Source of the DNA: Desulfuromonadales bacterium C00003107
GTDB lineage: Bacteria; Desulfobacterota; Desulfuromonadia; Desulfuromonadales; Syntrophotaleaceae
Reading direction: 5' to 3'
Assembly: GCA_001751225.1 (NCBI GenBank)
Contig: MAXT01000027.1
Span: forward strand, 1-11,890
DNA length: 11,890 nt
The notes under the pieces were generated by a model. That model searched no databases. It had not been told where the DNA came from and worked only from the letters and a program-made list of their open reading frames with translations. Below, piece by piece: positions 6,265 through 11,476 of the stretch. Numbering within the stretch: position 1 is the first letter of the stretch; the number at the start of each line of letters is the position of its first letter. A program made the translations under genes and the position numbers.

Positions 6265-7164
6265 TTAAGGGTGTATGACTGGACCGATGGGCCAGACCGG
6301 ATAGAAGAAGGGAAATCCACCGGTTTGATCTTTGCCGAAGTGGGCCATGAAATTCTGAATTTCGGGCGACATGATGAAGTCGGCCAAAGCCTTGGCTCCA
6401 GCATGATTTGCTTGGGGGTGGCGAGCCGGATTGGCCTCCATGAGAATGTAGGGGCGGCGCATGGTGGGGTCCTGATCGACCAAGATCTGTGCCTTGCCAA
6501 AGGGATGTTTTTCAAACACAGAGGGCATGCGGCCAAAGATGAAATAGGCTTCTTTGTTAGCGCCGAAAAGCGGAACATCACCGGAATAAGGTGCTTCGTC
6601 CTGAACAAACCAGGCACCGCTCGGACGGATTTTGGCCCGTTTCCACAGAGTATGACCGACCTCCCGGGGGCCGTTGCTGTTGACATCCATGAAGGTGCTC
6701 TGGGTGGTAGCGATGCGCTTCAACGCCTCTGCTCCGTCCTTCATGCCGCGGATGCCGGCCGGGTCGCTGGCCGGACCGTAAATAACAAGGTCATTGCGAG
6801 CGCAGGGGCGCATGTTGATGCCGTGGCCGTCGGCCACCAGGTCAGTGGTAATGTCGCCGGCATGCATAACCAAGAAGTCGGCATCGCCACTGCGAAAGGG
6901 TCCCGAAATCGTTGACCGCGGGCCGGTGGCAATCAATTCAATCTGATAATCGGTCTTAGCTTCGAAACGTTGCACGATAACATCCCACAGGCCAGTCATG
7001 GTCATGCCGCCAATGACACAGGCTCGTACTGTAGTATTTTGATTGCTTGCCGGTTCGGCCTCTGGTTTGTTTGGTGATGCTGCCAGGGCTGTTTGAGCCA
7101 TCAGTAGGCAGCCAAGTAAAGCCACGACAAGGCCGCGGGCAGGATTGTATATCGCTGGTTTCAT
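6265..7164 (-). CDS. TupA-like periplasmic substrate-binding protein (tungstate/molybdate type, divergent ligand motif)
   Basis: This is a 299-residue exported substrate-binding protein. Residues 1-29 form a Sec signal peptide with a hydrophobic core (GLVVALLGCLLM) and a likely cut after ALA-A. The mature part resembles the TupA group of oxyanion-binding proteins: GLWDVIVQRFEAKT, DADFLVMHAGDITTDLVADGHGINMRP, NDLVIYGPASDPAGI, GAEALKRIA, LWKRAKIRPSGAWF and NPARHPQANHAGAKALADFIMSPEIQNF all follow the TupA layout. The TTTS motif that holds tungstate in classical TupA is replaced by IGGM around residues 51-54, so the ligand may differ. The start at 7162-7164 has AAGGAG 7 bases upstream and gives a clean signal peptide; the frame continues to 7236 without a better start. 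No permease or ATPase gene is adjacent; the partner is the divergent TonB receptor. A ModE-like operator lies upstream. Confidence 0.8.
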   Translation of the reverse strand: MKPAIYNPARGLVVALLGCLLMAQTALAASPNKPEAEPASNQNTTVRACVIGGMTMTGLWDVIVQRFEAKTDYQIELIATGPRSTISGPFRSGDADFLVMHAGDITTDLVADGHGINMRPCARNDLVIYGPASDPAGIRGMKDGAEALKRIATTQSTFMDVNSNGPREVGHTLWKRAKIRPSGAWFVQDEAPYSGDVPLFGANKEAYFIFGRMPSVFEKHPFGKAQILVDQDPTMRRPYILMEANPARHPQANHAGAKALADFIMSPEIQNFMAHFGKDQTGGFPFFYPVWPIGPVIHP

Positions 7165-7250
7165 CGAGTCTCTCCTTGCATTCTTTTTAGGTGCTTGTAG
7201 CGTCATTGGGTCTAAATATGCAGCTTTTGGAGTCAAAAATTAACCTCAGG

Positions 7251-7277
7251 ACGTTATTTGCGTGACGATATAACGAT
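7251..7277 (-). promoter_or_regulatory. ModE-like operator 1 (TupA-like gene side)
   Basis: On the minus strand the site reads CGTTATAT, 8 bases, AAATAACG: a perfect 6-bp inverted repeat CGTTAT-N12-ATAACG at 7252-7275, flanked by AT and T. From memory, the E. coli modA operator bound by molybdate-loaded ModE has the same half-sites and the same 12-base spacing; by eye about 19 of 24 positions agree. It lies 87-113 bp upstream of the TupA-like start and would cover the -10 of its tentative promoter, so repression under molybdate sufficiency is the natural model. Confidence 0.65.
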
Positions 7278-7293
7278 GTATTGCAGGGTGCAA
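7265..7293 (-). promoter_or_regulatory. Tentative promoter for the TupA-like gene
   Basis: On the minus strand TTGCAC (7288-7293) lies 17 bases from TATCGT (7265-7270). The -35 is poor (3 of 6) and the -10 moderate (4 of 6); TATATC three bases away is an alternative -10. The -10 falls inside ModE-like operator 1, mirroring the arrangement on the receptor side. This would give a leader of roughly 90 bases. Confidence 0.3.
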
Positions 7294-7358
7294 GTTAGAA
7301 GTGTTTTAAGTGGGTGCGGTTCTGGTTTCAGTAGTTTGCGTAGCGCTATGTTGACTGC

Positions 7359-7388
7359 TTGACAACGGTTGCGGGGTGTCGTTATGGT
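7359..7388 (+). promoter_or_regulatory. Sigma70-type promoter for the TonB-dependent receptor
   Basis: A perfect -35 TTGACA (7359-7364) is followed after 18 bases by TATGGT (7383-7388, 4 of 6); TTATGG at 17 bases is the alternative. Transcription would start near 7395, about 78 bases before the receptor ATG. The -10 lies inside ModE-like operator 2, so repressor binding would directly block RNA polymerase. Confidence 0.6.
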
Positions 7389-7403
7389 CTCGCGATTATA
7401 GCG
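7380..7403 (+). promoter_or_regulatory. ModE-like operator 2 (TonB receptor side)
   Basis: CGTTAT (7380-7385) and ATAGCG (7398-7403) form an inverted repeat with one mismatch and a 12-base spacer, the same geometry as operator 1. It covers the -10 and the expected start point of the receptor promoter. It is a weaker match than operator 1 (about 16 of 24 to the E. coli modA operator as remembered), but its exact spacing and placement on the promoter argue against chance. Confidence 0.5.
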
Positions 7404-7472
7404 GCGATAGTTTTGATCCGGATGTACGCTGCAGAATTTGAAATTTATTTTGAAAGATGATGAGGAGGATTT

Positions 7473-9437
7473 ATGAAACACAGATTTATTGCGGTTTTGG
7501 CTGCATTGGCCATGCTGGGTGGAACTGTCGGTCTAGCGTCGGCTGCCGATGACGGCGTTTATCGTCTCGGTGAGGTTGTTGTCTCAGGCCAGGAGTCTGG
7601 TGTTGAGGCCATCGGCACTACCCACAAGGTGACCGCCGAAGAAATCGAAAAACGTGGCGCACGTACCCTTGATGAGGCTATCAACCTGCTGCCGGGCGTG
7701 TCGGTCCGTGTAGGTGGTGACGGTACTCCGCGTATCGATATTCGCGGTCTGCGTACTCGTCACATCAAGCTGTTGCTTAACGGTACCCCTTTCAACAGCA
7801 CTTACGATGGTCAGTTTGATCCGTCATTAATTTCGGTGGAGAATATTGCCGAGGTTAGCGTCACCACCGGTGGCGGCTCTGAACTGTACGGTTCGGGCGG
7901 CAATGCCGGGGTTATCAATATCATCACAAAGAAGGGCGGCCAAGGCTTCAACGGTTCTGCGGGGGTCGAACTCGGCGAAGTTGATGCCAGCCTGCTGCGG
8001 GCCACTGCCGGTTACGGGACGGAAAAGTACGATTTCTTCGTCAGCGGCAGCATCTACGATCGTGATGCCTTCCGGATGTCAAACCATTTCAGTGAGGAAA
8101 AGTATGAAGATGGTGACGACCGGGAAAACAGCGACCGCGAGCGCCAAACCTTGTTCTTCAATGTGGGTTACCAGCCCACCGATGCGACCCTGTTGGGTGT
8201 AACCTTCAGCGCCATCAATGGCGAGCGGGGCAAGCCGCCGGTCGTCTACGACAACAAAGAAGACGATTTCGCAAAATCGGTAAAATATGAAAGAGAAGAT
8301 GATGCCGACGAATTCAACGTACAGGTGGCTGCCAGCCACGATTTCGCCGGACCGTTGAGCGTCAAGGGCTGGGTCTATTACAATAGTCTCGACCTGGAAG
8401 AGAATGGCTATGATGATGACACTTATTCCAGCCAGACCAAAAGCAAATCCTATAGCTATGATTCAGAGACTGAAATTTCTGGGGCCAATCTGCAACTGCG
8501 TTACGATTTAGAACGTTTCGGAGCTGTGACTGTAGGAGGTATGTTCGAGGATAATCAGTGGGAAGTTGATGGGTATGAAGTCGGCAAAAGCAAGACGACC
8601 CTGGTGGACGAAAAAGAAGACTTCCAACTCTATTCGGCAAGCATGGAGTATGTAGTTTCCCCCGTGGACAAGCTCGGTGTGGTCCTCGGTGCTGGCGCCC
8701 ACTGGCAGGATCGCGACGGCAAGGACGAGGATGATTATTCTTACCTGATCGGCCTGACCTACAATCTGCGTGAAGGGACCCGCCTCAAGACCTCCCACAC
8801 CCGCAAGGTGCGCTTCCCCACCCTGAAAAACCTTTACGATCCCGAAGATGGCAATCCTGAACTGGAGGCCGAGATTACCCGCAGTTACGAGGCTGGCGTG
8901 GAGCAGCAGATCCCGGCCAAAACCCTGCTGTCGGTGACCGGATTCTATATCGAAACTGAAGATTTCATCGAAAAGGTCGATCCCGATCCTTTGGTGCGGA
9001 ACTACGACGAGTACGAGTTCTACGGTGTGGAAGTCGCGGCAGAAAATCGCTATTTCGACCGTCTGTTCCTCAGAGCCAGCTACTCTTACTTGAAAAGTGA
9101 AGACAAAAGCGATGATGCCGACCGTGACGAGTTGCAGAATCGGCCCGAACACAAGATCACCCTCGAGTCGACCTATAATCTTCCCTGGGGCATGACCGCT
9201 TACGGTTCTGCTCTGTATGTTACCGACAACTACTACTACAGTCGCACCACTCCCATGGAGCAGGCAAAACTGTCGGATTATGTTGTTGTCGATTTCAAAC
9301 TCAACAAGTCGGCTGCCAACGGCGCCATCGATCTTTATCTTGGTGTCGATAACATGTTCGACGAGGACTACGAGCAGAGCTACGGTTTCCCCCTGGCCGG
9401 TCGTACCTTCTATGGCGGCGCAACCTGGAAGTTTTAA
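7473..9437 (+). CDS. TonB-dependent outer-membrane receptor
   Basis: This is a 654-residue TonB-dependent receptor, an energised outer-membrane gate that imports scarce metals or metal chelates using TonB-ExbB-ExbD. Residues 1-25 are a Sec signal peptide (cut near ASA-A). GEVVVSG (33-39) is the TonB box. The plug spans about 45-155: ITAEEI-like VTAEEIEKRG, LLPGVSVRV, IDIRGLRTRHIKLLLNG, and VINIITKKG near its end. The remainder is a beta barrel ending in an aromatic residue (TFYGGATWKF), as needed for outer-membrane assembly. Several predicted loops are strongly acidic (about 207-222, 260-280, 307-333, 412-422, 541-553). The ATG has GAGGAGG 4 bases upstream. Divergence from the TupA-like gene and a ModE-like operator on its promoter suggest a molybdenum or tungsten species as cargo, but the substrate cannot be read from the sequence; cobalamin, siderophore or nickel cargo remain alternatives. 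Confidence 0.95.
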   Translation: MKHRFIAVLAALAMLGGTVGLASAADDGVYRLGEVVVSGQESGVEAIGTTHKVTAEEIEKRGARTLDEAINLLPGVSVRVGGDGTPRIDIRGLRTRHIKLLLNGTPFNSTYDGQFDPSLISVENIAEVSVTTGGGSELYGSGGNAGVINIITKKGGQGFNGSAGVELGEVDASLLRATAGYGTEKYDFFVSGSIYDRDAFRMSNHFSEEKYEDGDDRENSDRERQTLFFNVGYQPTDATLLGVTFSAINGERGKPPVVYDNKEDDFAKSVKYEREDDADEFNVQVAASHDFAGPLSVKGWVYYNSLDLEENGYDDDTYSSQTKSKSYSYDSETEISGANLQLRYDLERFGAVTVGGMFEDNQWEVDGYEVGKSKTTLVDEKEDFQLYSASMEYVVSPVDKLGVVLGAGAHWQDRDGKDEDDYSYLIGLTYNLREGTRLKTSHTRKVRFPTLKNLYDPEDGNPELEAEITRSYEAGVEQQIPAKTLLSVTGFYIETEDFIEKVDPDPLVRNYDEYEFYGVEVAAENRYFDRLFLRASYSYLKSEDKSDDADRDELQNRPEHKITLESTYNLPWGMTAYGSALYVTDNYYYSRTTPMEQAKLSDYVVVDFKLNKSAANGAIDLYLGVDNMFDEDYEQSYGFPLAGRTFYGGATWKF

Positions 9438-9542: not shown

Positions 9543-10721
9543 TCAATTCTTGTTCGCCGATTGGATGGCTCGTTCCACCAGTCGGTAGATTTCAGGCAAT
9601 GGCTGGCCGCTATCCATTGCCAGTTGTCGGCAGCTCTCAAATTCCGGCACCGTGCGAAGTCGCTGCTCTCCCTCGTAAAAGTGTTTAACCTGCGCCGTGC
9701 CAAGGGGGGTGGTTACCATAGCCGGTTCGCTGCGCAGCTTGTAGCGGCGCGACTCCTGCCAACGGACTCCGGCAGCGCTGCTTTCCCGCAAGATGATCCG
9801 TGCCAGTTGTTCGGATAAATGGGGTGGGGCGATAACGGTCAGGGCCAGCCCAGGTCGATTCTTTTTCATCTGCAAGGCGCTGTAACCCACGTCGAAAGCA
9901 CCGGCGGACAGCAGGCTGTCCATCAAGACGCCGAGCCACTCAGGGTTAGCGTCGTCAAGGTGGCTTTCGAGAATTGTCACCCGGTCCTGGTCGAGAGTTT
10001 CTTCAACTTCTGCTTCACCGAGAAGGCCCCGTAGCAGGTTAGGTCGGTCGGTCTGCTCTCGCTCGCCGGCCCCGTAGCCGACGGTTTCCAGAGTCATGGC
10101 CGGCATGGTTTCAAAAGAAGCAATTTCGGCAGCGATAGCGGCTCCGGTGGGGGTGACCAATTCGACTTCGGCACGATCCTCGATTATCGGCAGGCCGCGA
10201 AGAATCTCCAGGGTGGCCGGGGCTGGCAGGGGAAAGTTACCGTGAGCACAGCCTACCGTGCCGCGGGTCATCGGCAGGGGGGCGCAGACGACACGCGGAT
10301 TGCCCAGTAGATGTAAACCGATGGCGGCACCGACAATGTCGATGATGGAGTCGAGGGCGCCGACTTCGTGAAAATGAACCGCTTCCAGAGCCACGCCATG
10401 AATCTTGGCTTCCGCTTCGCCGATGCGGCGGAAGATGCGGCGCGCCAGTTCCCTGGTCTCTGTAGCCAGGGCACTGTCCGCCAGCATGCGGTCGATGTCG
10501 CGCCAGGTTCGGTGATGGTGCTGTTCTTCGCAGTGCACGGTCAGCTTGCTGCCGGTGATGGCTTGACGTTGGACTTTCTTCAGCTCCAGGTGGTAGCCGT
10601 CCACGGGCAACTTTTTTAACTCTGATTCAAGGTCGGCCAGGGGCAGGCCCAGATCGAGCAGCAGGCCGAGAAACATATCGCCGGAAATGCCGGAGAAGGT
10701 ATCGAGGAACAGGGTTTTCAT
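9543..10721 (-). CDS. larC: Nickel-pincer cofactor biosynthesis protein LarC (DUF111)
   Basis: LarC is the CTP-dependent nickel insertase that completes the nickel-pincer nucleotide cofactor used by LarA lactate racemase and related racemases/epimerases. The 392-residue protein is full length and in one frame. It starts MKTLFLDTFSGISGDMFLG, as the family does, and carries a short His run CEEQHHH (64-70), VHFHEVGALDSIIDIVG (115-131), PLPAPATLEIL (164-174), LVTPTGAAI (188-196), GYGAGE (215-220) and ESHLDDANPEWLG (252-264). In Lactobacillus plantarum the protein is split and made through programmed frameshifting; no such break is seen here. Its ATG overlaps the larB stop by 4 bp (ATGA), so the two are cotranslated. 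The ribosome site is weak (GGAA), which fits coupling. larE and larA are not in the window. Confidence 0.94.
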   Translation of the reverse strand: MKTLFLDTFSGISGDMFLGLLLDLGLPLADLESELKKLPVDGYHLELKKVQRQAITGSKLTVHCEEQHHHRTWRDIDRMLADSALATETRELARRIFRRIGEAEAKIHGVALEAVHFHEVGALDSIIDIVGAAIGLHLLGNPRVVCAPLPMTRGTVGCAHGNFPLPAPATLEILRGLPIIEDRAEVELVTPTGAAIAAEIASFETMPAMTLETVGYGAGEREQTDRPNLLRGLLGEAEVEETLDQDRVTILESHLDDANPEWLGVLMDSLLSAGAFDVGYSALQMKKNRPGLALTVIAPPHLSEQLARIILRESSAAGVRWQESRRYKLRSEPAMVTTPLGTAQVKHFYEGEQRLRTVPEFESCRQLAMDSGQPLPEIYRLVERAIQSANKN

Positions 10722-11476
10722 GATGGGTTCCGTCGGTTAATGCGGGCGGCGGCGCATGCGGCACCGAAGCCGTTGTCGATATTGACTACAGTCACACCGC
10801 TGGCACAGGAGTTAAGCATGCCGAGCAGGGCAGCGATGCCGCCGAAACTAGCCCCGTAGCCGACCGAGGTCGGCACGGCGATGACTGGTGTTGCCACCAG
10901 GCCTCCGATCACCGAAGGCAGAGCCCCTTCCATGCCGGCCACTACGATTAAAACCTCTGCGCTGCGAAGCAATTCCAGCCGGTCGAACAGACGGTGAATG
11001 CCTGCTACCCCGACATCGACGAGCTCTTCCACCTCGTTGCCGAGCATTCGCGCGGTTACGGCAGCTTCCCGAGCTACGGGCAGGTCGGAGGTGCCGGCAC
11101 AGACTACCAGAATTTTGCCTCGGCCAACGATCTCGATGGGGCTCTGCACCTGGGAGAAGGTTCGCGCTTCGCTGTCATAACAGCCTTGAGGGAATTCGCT
11201 CAACAGCTGCTCAGCCTTGCTTTCATCGAGGCGGGTAACCAGCACGTTGCTATTGCGGCGAACCATAGCGCCGACGATGGTGATTATCTGTGCCGCCGTC
11301 TTGCTGGCGCCAAGAATCGTCTCCGGGGTGCCTTGACGCAGCTGCCGGTGGTGGTCGAGGCAAGCAATGTCGAGGTTCTCGTAGGGCAGGGTGGCCAGTC
11401 GCTTCATTCCGTCTTCAACGGAGAGTCTGCCGTTGCTGAGATCCTCAAGCAGTATTTTCAGGTCATTGGGATTCAT
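10718..11476 (-). CDS. larB: Nickel-pincer cofactor biosynthesis protein LarB
   Basis: LarB carboxylates the pyridinium ring of nicotinate adenine dinucleotide and hydrolyses the phosphoanhydride, giving pyridinium-3,5-biscarboxylate mononucleotide, the first step toward the nickel-pincer cofactor. The 252-residue cytoplasmic protein has a variable N-terminal half and a PurE/AIR-carboxylase-like C-terminal domain with CAGTSDLPVAREA (126-138), DVGVAGIHRLFD (154-165), GMEGALPSVIGGL (181-193), PTSVGYGASFGG (202-213) and LNSCASGVTVVNIDNGFGAA (221-240). The cysteine at 224 fits the family's conserved catalytic cysteine (from memory). The ATG at 11474-11476 gives the normal family N-terminus (MNPNDLKILLEDLSNG) but has only a weak GAG upstream. 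It lies 83 bp after a DRTGG-like gene and overlaps larC by 4 bp. Confidence 0.94.
   Translation of the reverse strand: MNPNDLKILLEDLSNGRLSVEDGMKRLATLPYENLDIACLDHHRQLRQGTPETILGASKTAAQIITIVGAMVRRNSNVLVTRLDESKAEQLLSEFPQGCYDSEARTFSQVQSPIEIVGRGKILVVCAGTSDLPVAREAAVTARMLGNEVEELVDVGVAGIHRLFDRLELLRSAEVLIVVAGMEGALPSVIGGLVATPVIAVPTSVGYGASFGGIAALLGMLNSCASGVTVVNIDNGFGAACAAARINRRNPS

Follow-up and report, generated by a model that had tools for sequence, protein, structure and literature searches.

Two operators with the half-sites and spacing of the regulator ModE lie between the divergent genes for a TonB-dependent outer-membrane receptor and a TupA-like periplasmic binding protein in a genome of the Desulfuromonadales, and they are almost certainly genuine. 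Control of the receptor gene by ModE is very likely, judging from the sequences compared here, and uptake of molybdenum or tungsten (Mo/W) by the predicted system is likely. Molybdate and tungstate are generally taken to diffuse through porins into the periplasm. The arrangement suggests a dedicated outer-membrane import route for these metals, and its best reading, which we consider probable, is that a molybdenum or tungsten species is taken up with TonB energy under the control of ModE. The 11,890 nucleotides analysed, here called the window, make up an entire contig. The draft genome to which it belongs has 2.53 Mb in 423 contigs, at 87% completeness and 7% contamination; in the public record, the close relatives of the window are Desulfuromonadales.

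Operators and Promoter of the Divergent Gene Pair

The binding-protein and receptor genes diverge from a 308-bp gap (7165-7472; Table 1). The start of the TupA-like gene is set at the ATG at 7164; the list of open reading frames begins at an upstream TTG instead. On the far side of the receptor gene, larC and larB stand tail to tail with it (9543-11476).

The original prediction, made from the letters of the window, described two dyads in this gap with ModE half-sites and a 12-bp spacer, and both are found exactly at 7252-7275 and 7380-7403, their centres 128 bp apart. It also placed each dyad over the -10 element of a promoter. For the second dyad this was reproduced by a promoter scan, which returns a perfect TTGACA followed, after an 18-bp spacer, by a -10 hexamer that lies inside 7380-7403. 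The scan gave no promoter on the minus strand, and so the overlap of the first dyad with the -10 element of the opposite gene is left unconfirmed. A third dyad, which the original prediction did not report, covers the TTGACA and precedes 7380-7403 by 36 bp. This spacing of 35-36 bp from the third site to the next recurs in three relatives (loci L017, L019 and L020), and by itself the third site is noise (-0.4) with the position weight matrix (PWM) described below.

Table 1. Genes, operators and promoter elements of the window.
Feature	Position	Strand	Basis
TupA-like periplasmic solute-binding protein, 299 aa	6265..7164	-	PF13531/PF12849; NCBIfam TupA 50 bits, cut-off 400
ModE-type operator beside the solute-binding protein gene, perfect CGTTAT-N12-ATAACG	7252..7275	.	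PWM 19.5 bits, p 8.1e-8 per position
Weaker third site, operator-like, across the receptor promoter's -35, CGCTAT-N12-ACAACG	7344..7367	.	2 mismatches; conserved
-35 element TTGACA, receptor promoter	7359..7364	+	promoter scan
ModE-type operator across the receptor promoter's -10, CGTTAT-N12-ATAGCG	7380..7403	.	PWM 17.0 bits, p 3.3e-7 per position
-10 element TATGGT, spacer 18	7383..7388	+	promoter scan; TATAGT in G020 and G017
TonB-dependent outer-membrane receptor, 654 aa, plug + barrel	7473..9437	+	PF07715 and PF00593 above cut-off
larC (nickel-pincer cofactor protein), a neighbour also in most clusters of the relatives	9543..10721	-	profile match
larB (nickel-pincer cofactor protein), a neighbour also in most clusters of the relatives	10718..11476	-	profile match
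BioD-like/DRTGG protein, C-terminal part, cut by the contig end	11560..11889	-	weak match, 18.6 bits

Chance or Signal

Loose matches to the dyad are no commoner than expected. With at most two mismatches, 46 places are found in the whole genome vs 75 for a reversed control, and with at most three, the window holds 3 matches vs 2.61 expected from shuffles. Such counts, near or below the control, leave the question of chance unsettled, and they are what speaks for taking the half-sites as chance, or as sites of another dyad-binding regulator. Three stricter tests settle the question. Chance, or another such regulator, is extremely improbable in view of the independently trained matrix, the sites in all target regions and the conservation of the half-sites described below, together with the site in a ModE-positive Providencia and its absence from Ferrimonas.

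The matrix was trained on seven operators of wtpA operons, the window genome's own and six from the family, none of them from the studied gap. A motif built from the lineage's own Mo/W transporter promoters had been proposed as a check, and the prediction passed it: 7252-7275 ranks first in the window and 7380-7403 second, with the next-best place at 3.1 bits. The per-position probabilities under this matrix, which knows wtpA operators only (Table 1), bear out the claim that the two sites are unlikely to have arisen by chance. The wtpABC operon of the window genome is itself preceded by CGCTATATTTGCAATGATATAGCG, 63 bp before the WtpA gene start (C372:746-769), and its WtpA scores 439 bits with the NCBIfam WtpA model (cut-off 355). 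In the 2.53-Mb assembly, 7252-7275 is the sole place with zero mismatches.

Across the 14 genomes of the family, the exact dyad CGYTAT-N12-ATARCG occurs at 33 places, vs 8 for the reversed control, and at least once in 12 genomes. Twenty-three of these places lie upstream of wtp operons (7), window-type receptors (7), ECF operons (5), further TupA-like genes (2) or a receptor of another type (2), and the other ten precede genes without a known molybdenum role. Certain genes also have an exact dyad close by in both genomes of a pair (L103:4050, L108:268, L092:4009, L099:3738, L093:3998, L095:3996); these genes, named by eye as PrmA-like, CoA-binding-protein-like and one unnamed, are possible further members of the regulon.

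In ten cluster loci, the matrix gives 19 matches of at least 8 bits in 18 of 18 regions upstream of receptor or ECF genes (6,537 bp; we drew their bounds from the gene matches and, for a few, chose the outer end), where about 0.18 would be expected with a third-order background; the remaining 136,460 bp hold 4. At 15 bits or more, 3 of the 18 regions are empty, and there are 16 matches vs 1 elsewhere. Most family loci (L084-L111) were picked because they contain an exact site. Others were found blind to it, through the binding protein (L017-L023, with L018 cut inside the gene) or through EcfS (L183). Among the blind loci that come from genomes with a strong ModE and have an intact upstream region, a site is present in five of five (L017, L019, L020, L023 and L183); the two Ferrimonas loci, likewise found blind, have none.

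Conservation of the Sites

Of the seven loci found through the binding protein, six were aligned with the window; L018 was left out, its gene being cut, and the binding-protein row of L020, which is out of frame near the C-terminus, was kept as is. In the four-species alignment of the genus, the 24-mer at 7380 ranks first and that at 7344 fourth among 285 by conservation, with half-sites at 0.92 and 0.86 vs spacers at 0.68 and 0.64. Fewer species lower or mix these ranks: 7380 falls to 22 with three species and 11 with two, and 7344 takes ranks 2 and 7. Both sites share some positions with the -35 and -10 elements; their outer half-sites lie clear of these.

The site at 7252-7275 is the least conserved of the three, at rank 157 of 285, with half-sites at 0.72 vs a spacer at 0.33 in the three species that have the binding protein. 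The corresponding operator has one mismatch in G020, is degenerate in G018 and is absent in G017, in which the binding-protein gene is a short remnant (L104:8484-8624) and the receptor-side operators are retained. The expected conservation in orthologous regions is seen at the two receptor-side sites, but on the binding-protein side the operator is weakened, degenerate or gone.

ModE across Genomes

A ModE-controlled locus calls for a ModE in the same genome, as the original prediction had recognised, and a ModE DNA-binding (HTH) domain is detected there at 95 bits. This is just under the cut-off of 98.5, in a frame that ends at the contig end after 113 aa. The domain is present at 93-100 bits in all 13 other genomes of the family. 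In two congeners and in Providencia, the HTH of ModE is accompanied by two TOBE domains.

Outside the family, Providencia burhodogranariea combines a ModE of 126 bits with a 22.2-bit site before a receptor/TupA-like operon. The matrix background follows the composition of the window genome and is too favourable for the AT-rich Providencia, hence a background of its own composition was used there; on it, the site's score is reached at 2 of 24.5 million positions (E ~5e-5 for the region). In two Ferrimonas with the same gene pair, the matrix finds no site upstream, and HTH matches are only unspecific (at most 27 bits). Five further genomes of the phylum lack a strong ModE: three have none, and the other two reach 53-54 bits. 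Their upstream maxima are -0.8, 1.3, 5.6, 7.8 and 9.8 bits. The last of these, a borderline site in G772, speaks slightly against a clean rule that ModE and the site go together. In G640, the 53-bit ModE-like protein gives no TOBE match.

A search for ModE found none in G597 or G459. Regulators that join an HTH to a PBP_like domain stand close to the binding-protein or ECF loci of three genomes, G597, G485 and G459 (L178:7003-7908, L217:14595-15512 and, by eye, L179:6691-7599), and may replace ModE as the sensor.

The TupA-Like Binding Protein

The predicted pairing of a TupA-like protein with a TonB receptor stands, but the protein is not TupA by either score or signature residues. The TupA signature consists of a TTTS motif, Arg118 and Thr124 (PMC4139814), and these align with Val-Ile-Gly-Gly, Val and Pro in the window protein, as read by eye from a HMMER alignment whose TTTS part was extended by hand. 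With the tungstate signature replaced and 50.4 bits vs the 400 of the NCBIfam equivalog, TupA identity is rejected. The fold is like that of TupA from the tungstate transporter TupABC (PDB 3lr1 and 5my5): the best fold matches are TupA, at 25-28% identity in the structural alignment, and then ModA-type structures, which is weak evidence given the low confidence of the predicted model (mean pLDDT 63.9). Unlike in TupABC, no tupB or tupC is found among the genes that adjoin the TupA-like gene in the window.

The binding-protein family is rare. A close copy is present in 6 of the 14 family genomes, and in Providencia's class 1 of 369 genomes has it at high score (Providencia itself), with nine others at 140-167 bits. 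Among 395 genomes of the phylum, G000, G597, G459, G640 and G596 score at least 350 bits (to the nearest bit), and G772 holds a contig-edge fragment at 214 bits; the remaining genomes of the 69 phylum matches reach at most 172 bits. Plasmid records give 113 matches, all below 60% identity, and among the matches listed the best 15 of 113 lie at 26-33%. Where the protein occurs in phylum genomes outside the family, a receptor adjoins it in four of five. Around the G597 copy, no receptor match is found in 18 kb, and FecCD-type ABC genes and a DTD gene are there instead. In G772, the copy shares an 8.4-kb stretch with another receptor type, SelB and a molybdopterin oxidoreductase gene.

Receptor, ECF and Neighbouring Genes in Relatives

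The cluster of the relatives comprises the receptor, a BioD-like protein, LarB, LarC, a paired ECF ATPase, EcfT, EcfS, a protein here called DTD, a repeat protein, ExbB, ExbD and sometimes the binding protein, in an order that varies among genera. In the congeners G017, G018 and G020, the ModE-controlled ECF operon begins directly beyond the BioD-like gene. The window ends within that gene, and the ECF genes of its genome may lie beyond the contig end; a search of the window's own assembly (87% complete) did not find EcfS. A further operator precedes the ECF ATPase gene in all eight clusters in which that gene has an upstream region of its own (G011, G012, G014 and G016 to G020), three of these operators being weak (8.2, 10.5 and 12.4 bits). 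In G008, the receptor, ECF genes, DTD, ExbB, ExbD and TonB form one gene row behind a 23.6-bit site. A TonB gene also lies in the cluster of G459.

The relatives' ECF ATPase best matches two NCBIfam ECF ATPase models at 304 and 298 bits, just under their cut-offs of 315 and 330, and scores above the cut-off with the cbiO model. Neither membrane protein, T or S, has a match in Pfam or NCBIfam (for S, at E 0.001), and their labels rest on position, size and look. EcfS is found in 9 of the 14 family genomes, and all nine have a PWM match of at least 8 bits before the receptor or the ECF genes.

Of 395 phylum genomes, ten outside the family have EcfS, and the loci of eight were fetched. Seven of these contain a full-length EcfS, and in every one the genes for the receptor, ECF ATPase, EcfT, EcfS and DTD stand together; the eighth (G650), a 7.6-kb contig with a weak EcfS match, shows the ECF ATPase alone. 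The seven loci have no binding protein, no lar match and no PWM score above 10.4 bits, so that a molybdenum link there is by relationship only. From these gene sets, the receptor, ECF and DTD genes look like a stable core to which ModE control and the binding protein are additions.

Identity to the window's receptor is 35-45% for the receptors of the ECF loci and for those of G459, G640 and G596, and it is 27-34%, over the aligned parts, for the receptors of Ferrimonas, Providencia and G772; the receptor tree was used for identities and grouping only. The nearest solved structure is the B12 receptor BtuB, and homology thus offers no hint of molybdenum. Long glycine-rich tracts (GGGN/GGGS-type repeats) are seen in the receptors of L021, L022 and L023 (Ferrimonas and Providencia); the receptor of G014 (L094:12295-14346) has a shorter one. 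A second TonB receptor type has exact ModE sites upstream in G012 (L088:1592-3553) and G013 (L091:1765-3753), and a 43-44% identical relative in G772 (L182:5355-7385) diverges from the TupA-like copy.

Six of the eight clusters of relatives contain larB and larC. In G017, G018 and G020, the two genes separate the receptor from the ECF genes; in G011, G012 and G016, they stand opposite the receptor across the divergent ModE region, which they may share with it. Together with the known ECF transporters for nickel and cobalt, this linkage could point to uptake of nickel for the adjoining nickel-pincer genes, with the ModE sites as cross-regulation. We regard nickel as a highly unlikely cargo: the stretches of G008, G014, L178-L182, L021-L023 and the seven distant ECF loci that were read contain no lar match, EcfS matches none of the curated nickel/cobalt S-component models (CbiM/NikM) in Pfam or NCBIfam, and a molybdate sensor that switches nickel uptake would make little sense.

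A DTD protein of 246 aa is encoded at L104:17355-18095, L105:14866-15606, L178:15793-16527 and other loci. It accompanies the ECF genes, except in G597, where its neighbours are the binding-protein gene and FecCD-type transporter genes. It matches the TiaS kinase-like domain and methanogenesis marker 11 weakly.

Predicted Mechanism and Cargo

In the ModE-controlled uptake that we favour, plentiful intracellular molybdate (or tungstate) would lead ModE to bind 7380-7403 on the -10 element, together with the weaker 7344-7367 on the -35 element, and to block the receptor gene. A further dimer at 7252-7275 would act on the TupA-like gene. On scarcity of the metals, the genes would be switched on, and the receptor would draw a molybdenum or tungsten species through the outer membrane with energy from TonB-ExbB-ExbD. 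The inner-membrane step in the relatives would fall to an ECF transporter (EcfAA', EcfT and EcfS) under the same operators, and the DTD protein would act on the cargo inside the cell. The TupA-like protein would be an accessory periplasmic carrier, retained in some lineages and lost in others.

A Mo/W cargo is proposed because wtp operons and TupA-like genes belong to the predicted regulon, the partner protein resembles TupA and ModA, and a molybdopterin oxidoreductase and SelB lie near the pair in G772. Weighing against it are the EcfS missing from the window's assembly, the replaced tungstate residues and the lar neighbours, which point to nickel.

ECF transporters and BtuB-like receptors mostly carry vitamins, so the ModE sites could be real and the cargo a vitamin-like compound or other nutrient containing neither metal, for example a corrinoid or a cofactor for Mo-independent pathways. 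The resemblance of the receptor to BtuB, that of DTD to the TiaS domain, and the ten of 33 exact sites before other kinds of gene fit such a cargo. It is nonetheless unlikely, since much of the remaining regulon is Mo/W transport (wtp and TupA-like genes), the paired binding protein is nearest to TupA and ModA by both sequence and fold, its copy in G772 lies near a molybdopterin oxidoreductase, and eight loci searched at Rfam gathering thresholds contain no riboswitch, of the cobalamin or any other known type.

Within the favoured reading of Mo/W uptake, a TonB receptor for a small oxyanion would be odd, and a complex or cofactor is put forward for this reason as a plausible chemical form of the cargo. 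Tentatively, and with rather less confidence than in Mo/W uptake itself, we propose a Mo/W-bearing organic compound in place of the bare oxyanion, either a metallophore complex or a scavenged molybdopterin-type cofactor, whose uptake would be induced through ModE at metal shortage and which the TiaS-like DTD protein would open with ATP.

Relation to Known Systems and Implications

The E. coli-type ModE consensus is given as ATCGNTATATA-N6-TATATANCGAT, and the same study reports such a site before modDABC of Geobacter sulfurreducens and none for the mod operons of Desulfuromonas (PMC545781). The present case resembles the E. coli-type regulon in its half-sites, the 12-bp spacing, the HTH with two TOBE domains in congeners and the operators before Mo/W ABC transporters. 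It differs from the ModE regulon described there in that the operators here precede a TonB receptor, a binding protein without a permease of its own and an ECF operon.

The plug and barrel of the receptor and the ExbB and ExbD genes of the relatives' clusters agree with BtuB-type transport; the ModE operators in front, the lack of a riboswitch in the eight loci and the ECF-type transporter that adjoins in relatives set the system apart. For Pseudomonas, a molybdate route in which secreted ModA delivers to the outer-membrane protein IcmP is mentioned in PMC11734730, and a dedicated outer-membrane step for molybdate was thus already proposed there. The system described here, in contrast, is a predicted ModE-controlled receptor with ECF genes in relatives. 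Cobalt/nickel ECF transporters (CbiMNQO), such as the cobalt transporter in Geotalea daltonii (PMC13119186), have in common with the relatives' loci the predicted ECF architecture and the trace-metal theme, but the S-component of the relatives has no profile match of that kind and ModE sites lie in front. In the open-licence literature, judged by title and the start of the abstract, none of the matches listed concerns a TonB receptor for molybdenum or tungsten or a ModE-controlled TonB/ECF locus.

E. coli-type ModE operators are now seen in a family of the Desulfuromonadales, near a group for which PMC545781 reports none before the mod operons (Desulfuromonas). If the reading is correct, the ModE-controlled TonB receptor with its linked ECF transporter would make molybdenum or tungsten one of the few metals that bacteria import with energy across the outer membrane, and EcfS and the TupA-like binding-protein family would gain a predicted class of substrate. 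Should the cargo be an organic compound, these bacteria would have a route for scavenging molybdenum or tungsten analogous to the uptake of B12 or siderophores.
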